Shown one piece after another: positions 21,557 through 32,876 of a stretch of 38,010 nucleotides of DNA. Numbering within the stretch: position 1 is the first letter of the stretch; every line of letters begins with the position of its first letter. The translations under genes and the position numbers were made by a program. This DNA is from Arcicella sp. (GTDB lineage Bacteria > Bacteroidota > Bacteroidia > Cytophagales > Spirosomataceae), in contig JANXML010000177.1 in NCBI GenBank assembly GCA_025354645.1, forward strand, positions 1 through 38,010, read 5' to 3'. The notes under the pieces are model-generated. The model was not told the origin of the DNA. It saw nothing but the letters and a program-made list of their open reading frames with translations, and did not search any database.

Positions 21557-21615
21557 GTAGGACAGGTTTCCAACCTGTCTTTGGATTAAAAAGACAGGTT
21601 GGAAACCTGTCCTAC
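21557..21615. repeat. Perfect 26-bp inverted repeat of double-palindrome units
   Basis: The left arm at 21557-21582 and the right arm at 21590-21615 are exact reverse complements around GGATTAA. Each arm is itself a small palindrome: GACAGGTT-TCC-AACCTGTC. Both arms therefore form hairpins singly or one long stem together, as in paired REP units. The element begins 3 nt after the SsuD-like stop and ends 5 nt before the phosphatase ATG, so it may end the first transcript and forms the leader of the next gene. Confidence 0.9.
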
Positions 21616-32069: not shown

Positions 32070-32102
32070 AACGTAGGCAGGGTTCAAAACCCTGCTTACG
32101 TT
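32070..32102. repeat. 33-bp palindrome beyond the 3' end of the RAYT gene
   Basis: AACGTAGGCAGGGTT and AACCCTGCTTACGTT are 15-bp arms (14 of 15 pair) around CAA. The same unit, with two arm bases different on each side, occurs inside the RAYT gene at 32592-32624. It lies between the M1 peptidase and the RAYT gene, which converge. Confidence 0.9.
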
Positions 32103-32189
32103 CATCCTCATATAAATTTATAGCTGAATTACCGTTTTTTCACGTTGTCAGGCTTTTTAATCTTGACGACATTTTAATATGACTTCATG

Positions 32190-32876
32190 TTAATCAAATT
32201 CAATAATAAATTTATCTAAATTATCGAAATCAGGATTATCGAAATGAAATTTCTCAAACTGGTCTCTGTTTCCAAACCAATCCCAAACTTCATCACGTCT
32301 TAATTTTGTCATTGCTTTACTCAAATGTGAATGATATGATGAATGTGGATATGCCTTGAAATCTTTTACGAAACCATGTCTTTGAGGATTGTGATGAATA
32401 TAGTAAACAAGTTCTGTAAAATAGGCATCTGTATCTACTAAAATTCTACGGAACGGTTCTTCAAAAAGCCCTCCTGTGCGGTTATTGGCTTTATTGATAG
32501 CTTGGGCATATCCATTAAATAAAAATGAAAGTTGTTTGCTGATTATATATGATGCAGAAGGAATCTTAGCATTTATATCAATGATTGGTTCAACGTAGGC
32601 AAGGTTCAAAACCTTGCCTACGTTATTGGTACTACTCTTTTTCTTTACATAAAAATCAATAATCTCCTTTTCACTTTTTGTTCTAATAGCGATATGAAAA
32701 TGGTTTTTCAATAAACAATAGGCAAAAGTATCCGCAATTGGCTCCACGTATTTTGCATATTTTTCCAAAAAATATCGATAATTTCGTTCTTCTTTAAATA
32801 TATTTTCTCCATTAATTCCACGATTATAAATATGGTAAATGCGGTCTGGTTCTAACAATTCAATATTTTTCTTCAT
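32190..32876 (-). CDS. REP-associated tyrosine transposase (RAYT, IS200-like Y1 family)
   Basis: A 228-residue single-domain HUH transposase. IYHIYNRGINGENIF at residues 13-27 and the HUH motif KNHFHIAIR near 57-65 are followed by the catalytic-tyrosine helix ELVYYIHHNPQRHGF. GGLFEEPFRRI and YPHSSYHSHL are typical of the RAYT branch, which copies or cuts REP hairpins and does not carry terminal inverted repeats of its own. Between KKKSSTN and EPIID an 11-residue stretch (NVGKVLNLAYV) is encoded exactly by a perfect 33-bp palindrome. The frame is open, so the protein may be functional. Start ATG 32876. Confidence 0.88.
   Translation of the reverse strand: MKKNIELLEPDRIYHIYNRGINGENIFKEERNYRYFLEKYAKYVEPIADTFAYCLLKNHFHIAIRTKSEKEIIDFYVKKKSSTNNVGKVLNLAYVEPIIDINAKIPSASYIISKQLSFLFNGYAQAINKANNRTGGLFEEPFRRILVDTDAYFTELVYYIHHNPQRHGFVKDFKAYPHSSYHSHLSKAMTKLRRDEVWDWFGNRDQFEKFHFDNPDFDNLDKFIIEFD
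32592..32624. repeat. Perfect 33-bp palindrome inside the RAYT coding region
   Basis: AACGTAGGCAAGGTT and AACCTTGCCTACGTT pair perfectly around CAA. It spans exactly eleven RAYT codons in frame. ATTGGT occurs just outside both ends (32584-32589 and 32625-32630), but a 6-bp duplication plus this insert would not keep the frame, so it may be chance. Confidence 0.95.

Follow-up and report, generated by a model that had tools for sequence, protein, structure and literature searches.

In-frame REPs inside tnpAREP genes and in-frame coding palindromes such as those of Rickettsia are already in print; our statements on them refer to excerpts of the papers cited. Quentin et al. (2018; PMC6006769) report REPs inserted in tnpAREP genes of subclass 2.4, with the reading frame intact and generally between the HuH and Y motifs. 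In-frame intragenic REPs are also the subject of a 2013 study (PMC3733652), which equates two families with RPE-6 and RPE-4 and, in the excerpt, presents its CGTC repeats as having no dedicated transposase. In the R. japonica genome the Rickettsia palindromic elements (RPEs), 100–150 bp in length, occupy the same sites in orthologues (PMC3767692). RAYTs and the REPs that flank them are reported to coevolve (PMC2817692, published in 2010), and TnpAREP is reported to cut and join REP single strands close to the hairpin, at CT or CA (PMC8266576).

Here we analyse a 38,010-nucleotide stretch of Arcicella sp. DNA (contig JANXML010000177.1; hereafter the window) that encodes a RAYT/TnpAREP-like HuH-Y1 transposase with a palindrome inside its coding sequence. 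The original prediction was that the RAYT gene may have received its own substrate element. Since insertion of REPs in tnpAREP genes has been published (PMC6006769), the idea is right but not new. What is new, as far as we have searched, is a phase lock of the insertions, two-sided changes in their arms and a contrast between lineages. A literature search, with most subscription papers outside its scope, returned no report of a 33-bp family in Arcicella, nor of a match or covariation between in-gene and flanking hairpins.

The palindrome and its host gene

The palindrome, AACGTAGGCAAGGTT-CAA-AACCTTGCCTACGTT, occupies positions 32592–32624 and has no assigned strand. Its two arms are complementary at 15 of 15 positions around a 3-nt spacer (15-3-15), 33 bp in all. 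It makes up codons 85–95, in phase 0, of a minus-strand ORF at 32190–32876 and encodes the peptide NVGKVLNLAYV, exactly as predicted: a perfect 33-bp palindrome equal to eleven in-frame codons of the RAYT. Folded as a single strand it reaches −16.5 kcal/mol (z −9.46 against 200 shuffles), and the search for window palindromes with up to three mismatches gave no match in 100 dinucleotide shuffles.

A sister palindrome (32070–32102, no strand, 14/15 pairs) does lie beyond the 3' end of the gene as stated originally; the distance of 88 bp given for it does not hold, the gap from the stop being 87 bases. At 32141–32173, 16 bp beyond the stop, a strandless stretch with about 10/15 pairs as read by eye and 61% identity to the sister is possibly a decayed third copy; in relatives the 3' flanking hairpin lies close to this position. 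No hairpin was found 5' of the gene in a scan of about 300 bp; the flanks show the 3' copy only, plus the possible relic. Elsewhere in the window, at 21557–21615, an inverted pair of GTAG-type hairpins (GTAGGACAGGTTTCCAACCTGTC ... GACAGGTTGGAAACCTGTCCTAC) forms a REPIN-like dimer that belongs to another repeat family, one with more than 12 matches among the own-genome places listed.

The host protein (228 aa) carries the motifs expected of a RAYT/TnpAREP protein, NHFH as HuH motif and YIHHNP as Tyr motif. It matches the NCBIfam model NF047646 (REP_Tyr_transpos) at E 3.4e-12 with 46.5 bits, below the curated cut-off of 80, and has no Pfam match at E 0.001. An AlphaFold2 model, a modest one built on a 12-sequence alignment (mean pLDDT 66.9, pTM 0.63), finds as its best PDB match, and its sole match below 0.001, the structure 4er8 of a RAYT in complex with a REP hairpin (E 6.6e-5). 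The TM values are low (0.37/0.48); the TnpAREP core fold is recovered, and the next structural matches are IS200/IS605 transposases. Over residues 84–95, the position of the insert, pLDDT falls below 50, in a linker between two helices. By its motifs and predicted fold, the gene is a divergent RAYT.

Named homologues come from Arcicella aurantiaca, Arcicella, Emticicia and unclassified Cytophagales bins, and a second genome of the window's genus, G007, has the same RAYT. The window's own genome (G000, a draft of 392 contigs) yields ten RAYT-model matches, including RAYT-like loci such as L379, L384 and L402. At locus L062 (G000:C108:14982-15563) a series of unrelated ACTTCCCGAAAGT hairpins is seen on the 5' side.

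The in-gene hairpin in close homologues

The window protein was aligned with 49 rows taken from loci L061–L109; L061 repeats the window gene, and eight genes occur twice. Six other distinct RAYT genes have NVGKVQNLADV-like residues at the same place (L063, L064, L065, L066, L067 and L068), and four of these (L064, L065, L067 and L068) belong to genera other than the window's. In all six the residues are coded by a palindrome with 13–15 of 15 pairs, at the same place and in the same phase; L066 has a copy upstream in addition. A peptide conserved without palindromy in the DNA, which the original prediction had named as its own refutation, was found in none of the six. Five of the palindrome-bearing RAYTs are aligned over their full length and are 67–78% identical to that of the window; L068 is 74% identical over its part.

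Across the seven aligned in-gene 33-mers, 97.1% of cells are paired, and pairing drops to 30–51% when the partner columns are slid. Covariation stands at 0.260 against 0.089 in shuffled columns, a level reached in 0 of 500 shuffles, with the caveat that related sequences may surpass shuffles without any structure. Four pairs have changed on both sides, as many as in 6/500 shuffles, and there are 7 further pair types, a number equalled in 41/500.

The distance between the HuH and Tyr motifs is 90 in the hairpin-free related RAYTs L069/L099 and 101 in the window gene. This difference of exactly 11 residues is suggestive only, because the loop varies in length anyway: from 96 to 110 in the seven hairpin-bearing RAYTs, and down to 80 in L072, which has no hairpin. 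We looked in the loop of L069/L099 for a decayed hairpin of their own type and saw none. In L065 (positions 1759–1815) the in-gene palindrome runs past the 33 bp and reaches 26 pairs, the left flank being the right flank's reverse complement. L064 has a different left flank and nearly the same right flank, and L065 is on these grounds a possible case of palindrome extension by template switching within a coding gene.

A dispersed 33-bp family

Confinement of the palindrome to one locus, the other outcome that would have spoken against the original prediction, does not hold. In the window's own genome 34 copies were scored, counting fetched loci that also had 12/15 pairs; a pattern search listed 35 matches. 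Of 198 genomes searched, 32 contain the strict pattern; they represent 11 of 87 genera, and the reversed control gave 0 in every case. Looser patterns carry some background, with 47 places against 12 for the reversed control, and 38 against 16, in the own genome. Our main census comprises 118 scored copies from eleven genomes, of the window's genus and three other genera; nearly all listed places were fetched for the own genome and G005, and part of them for the other genomes.

At 33 bp, dispersed and with 91/118 copies outside ORFs of at least 120 aa, the family agrees in size, dispersal and mostly extragenic placement with GTAG-type REPs, which are palindromes of 20–40 bp. The GTAG that such REPs have at their 5' foot is found in both window copies within the stem; its place is taken by other letters (GTCG, GCTG, GCAG, GAAG) in most variants of the family. 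No target-site duplication or strong end motif was found at the copies, only T- and A-rich flanks.

Two copies lie at the RAYT locus of G000, and in G058 and G002 the strict copies, among the matches listed, are all on the RAYT contig. G005 has the most copies of the group (47 scored), and none of 7 loci inspected there, out of 10 RAYT-model matches, held a RAYT flanked by the 33-bp family. These copies may come from elsewhere, or the draft may lack the RAYT gene. In the same genome (loci L253–L295) the arm GCTGGTAGG is common to 21/47 copies, and judging by this shared arm these copies look like a recent burst.

In-frame copies in unrelated genes

The original prediction held that a stop-free unit with a length divisible by three could spread inside genes, and proposed that copies in frame in coding regions be counted. 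That count is 27 intragenic copies among the 118, in ORFs of at least 120 aa, all 27 of them in phase 0; together with sites that are empty in relatives (helicase and MiaA, below), it bears the proposal out. The palindrome reads nearly the same 11 residues in both orientations (N-V-G-K/E-V-Q/L-N-L-A-D/Y-V) and is usually stop-free in phase 0: this phase is open on 111 of the 118 copies in the plus and 106 in the minus orientation, phases 1 and 2 on 50–56 and 75–77. Stop codons alone do not account for the bias. At an expected share of 0.457 of open phases for phase 0, 16/16 gives 3.6e-6 and 20/20 gives 1.6e-7, although the cases are not independent: by our own count the 27 copies represent about 17 sites once orthologous and paralogous ones are merged, and two sites near the N-terminus (L251, residue 17; L286, residue 25) may precede the true start.

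Pfam matches were obtained for 16/27 palindrome-bearing ORFs and include a GDPD protein, UnbV/ASPIC, a histidine kinase, GH106, a HEAT/DUF7133 protein, a sortilin-like protein, FG-GAP, a hydantoinase, an Eco57I-type methylase, an M61 peptidase, an AAA helicase and MiaA. No Pfam match was found for L066:2264-2821, L113 or the RAYTs scanned. In the helicase, G000 and G035 share one insertion site and G005 has a different one, and the remaining aligned sequences are without the insert; G007 has a stretch resembling the insert, and G000 a longer loop at the site used in G005. In MiaA the insertion sites of G000 and G005 differ, and the other aligned relatives have no insert. That the same two genes, MiaA (L214, L215) and the helicase (L184, L186), are hit at different sites in different species suggests favoured loops or genes.

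Between G000 and G035 the helicase insert shows a two-sided change, GTAGTC/GACTAC versus GTCGTC/GACGAC, so RAYT genes are not alone in showing such changes. The GH106 copy has decayed to 12/15 pairs in G000, as against 15/15 in G007, in proteins that are 82% identical.

Outside the main group we counted a further 76 copies, taken from seven genomes, of which 5 lie in ORFs. RAYT genes host two of the five, both in phase 1, and another falls in a 123-residue ORF beside a RAYT. In G074 the number is 0/33. With RAYT copies set aside, the intragenic share is 20/111 in the main group versus 3/74 outside (Fisher p 0.005), and 14/80 in G000 plus G005 versus 1/58 in G074, G055 and G089 (p 0.004). As the two sets were sampled differently, we treat this contrast as a lead.

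Hairpins at other RAYT loci

To place the window gene among other RAYTs we scanned 81 RAYT loci for hairpins, after removal of eight gene-repeating loci; L099 and L136 are still one gene counted twice. At a threshold of at least 12 pairs, 62/81 loci have at least one flanking hairpin and 39/81 have them on both sides. Seven loci without a recognised HuH or Tyr motif cannot satisfy the in-gene rule, which leaves 74 assessable; a hairpin lies between the two motifs in 15 of these and is missing from the other 59. The scan and a correction by hand gave 16 in-gene hairpins. L067, with 13/15 pairs, exceeds the one-mismatch limit of the scan and was added by hand, and L083, which met the scan rule but resembles no flank (0.25), was dropped. 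A 10-pair partial hairpin in L169, with a flank likeness of 0.82, was likewise left out.

The in-gene hairpins resemble those that flank the same gene. Among the 13 that can be compared, 11 match their own flanks at 0.89–1.00 identity (11/14 if L083 is included), against a median of 0.43–0.60 for the flanks of other loci; in L063 (0.73) and L085 (0.67) the hairpin does not match the gene's own flanks. Mapped on a 73-row tree built without the loop, by a quick method that leaves many weak branches, presence of the hairpin requires at least 7 changes, 3 of them forced by starred branches. The phase differs as well: it is 0 in the Arcicella group and 1 in L070 and L073, where phase 0 would hit TGA. 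From these sequences, flank-matching hairpins have probably entered the HuH–Tyr region of RAYTs more than once. L071 and the RAYTs of g13 (L165, L166, L170 and L171) have flanking hairpins and no in-gene copy, and the in-gene copy is therefore dispensable. Compared with dispersed copies, the in-gene arms match those of their own genome no better than those of other genomes (the best match of the G035 arms is a copy in G005), so 'cognate' holds for the flanks of the locus only.

Discussion

We consider it likely that the palindrome is a short REP hairpin of the RAYT type that inserts tolerably in frame, the RAYT's own loop included, and that the gene is a RAYT linked to such elements. That the gene received an element of its own kind is supported by the dispersed family, the flanking hairpins and the 11/13 flank matches; the action of the RAYT itself is something we infer. 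A RAYT-type HuH transposase would cut and rejoin the hairpin in single-stranded DNA, and new copies would land preferentially near the source gene. Each 33-bp insertion would add 11 codons, and landings in phase 0 within flexible loops would survive; one such survivor would be the copy in the RAYT's disordered linker between the HuH and Tyr motifs. The arms stay paired while changing, which would most simply reflect hairpin-templated correction or turnover with neighbouring copies.

Hairpin-templated correction, known as quasipalindrome correction, could also be the whole story after a single old insertion: the element would have been inherited ever since and kept palindromic by that mechanism, with no further action of a RAYT. 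The shared position and phase in seven genes fit such a history, as does L065, whose extension to 26 pairs with a flank mirrored relative to L064 is what template switching would yield. By itself, however, it leaves unexplained both the 11/13 in-gene arms that match their flanks and the hairpins in other RAYT clades, and we regard it as possible but doubtful. Another factor altogether might move the dispersed elements, the RAYT gene being merely one more host gene, as the large G005 family with no family-flanked RAYT at the 7 loci inspected could suggest. This is improbable, given the 2 copies at the G000 RAYT locus, the listed strict copies of G058 and G002 on the RAYT contig and the hairpins that adjoin most RAYTs surveyed (62/81). 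Finally, a palindrome produced by chance through codon use around a conserved peptide could appeal to the recurrence of the 11 residues in homologues, but the absence of matches in shuffles, the fold z of −9.46, the paired changes and the presence of the same DNA outside ORFs refute it, and we give it practically no credence.

The in-gene copy could instead be a working part: the RAYT would bind or cut its own coding hairpin, as single-stranded DNA or mRNA, and so limit its own expression or activity. Several observations can be read this way, namely the retention of the hairpin at one position in seven RAYTs, the two-sided arm changes in the seven in-gene hairpins, the hairpins that distant RAYTs carry in this region in varying phases, and the listed strict copies of G058 and G002, all on the RAYT contig. 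However, 59/74 assessable RAYTs have no such hairpin, and the two-sided change in a non-RAYT helicase (G000, G035) means that no RAYT-specific reason is needed; we think self-regulation unlikely. Retention in the gene is likelier to reflect passive tolerance plus hairpin self-correction than regulation; the in-gene copy may have a regulatory role, its retention being what points that way. Unlikely too, and a little less probable than simple self-regulation, is a bolder version in which the hairpin is a built-in self-target: distant RAYT lineages would repeatedly gain their own substrate hairpin in the same permissive loop, its arms would track the flanks, a transposase able to bind or cut its own gene would limit itself and so persist longer, and the same phase-locked hairpin would seed 11-residue insertions in host proteins.

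The reading that we prefer, tolerated insertion of a RAYT-type hairpin, has a wider bearing. A 33-bp family that enters genes in a single phase and both surrounds and enters a RAYT offers a concrete enzyme candidate for the origin of palindromes in coding DNA, RPEs among them. That distant RAYTs carry a flank-matching hairpin in one loop poses, in turn, a choice between tolerated self-insertion and self-regulation.

Comparison with known systems

The closest likeness is with TnpAY1 subclass 2.4 (PMC6006769), also found in Bacteroidetes, where a hairpin sits in frame inside the transposase gene, in the HuH–Y interval and in a variable peripheral region. The 'double foot' REPs of that subclass end in GT[AG]G / C[TC]AC, which the GTAG...CTAC of the window copy resembles; the window copy differs in having three more paired bases (AAC/GTT) outside GTAG, and most variants of its family have other letters. 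Against the subclass motifs NH[IFV]H, WQ and YIxNNP, the window protein agrees in NHFH and departs in FE and YIHHNP; YIHNNP is seen in four relatives with hairpins (L080, L081, L150 and L160). Two-sided changes, a match to the flanks and a phase lock do not appear in the excerpts of that paper.

As in the REPtrons (PMC2817692, as excerpted; E. coli yafM), RAYTs here are flanked by inverted REPs that keep their palindromy despite change. Unlike in those, an extra copy lies inside the coding sequence, and no 5' flank copy was found at the window locus. The likeness to the CGTC repeats (excerpt of PMC3733652) is one of letters only: the ACGTCG-type palindromes here flank and enter RAYT genes, and the CGTC tag, unpaired at one end of those repeats, is inside the stem in copies of the window family.

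With the Rickettsia palindromic elements and the intragenic GTAG/CGTC REPs, as described in the excerpts of PMC3733652 and PMC3767692, the family shares its presence in unrelated protein genes, an unbroken frame and the same or nearby sites in orthologues. The RPEs, at 100–150 bp (PMC3767692), are set apart by their description from the single 33-bp units seen here. Unrelated genes carry the 33-bp units in frame, and the site is empty in relatives for the two genes compared, which makes the resemblance one of behaviour: by analogy, the 33-bp family would work like the RPEs, and we do not file it as a member of them.
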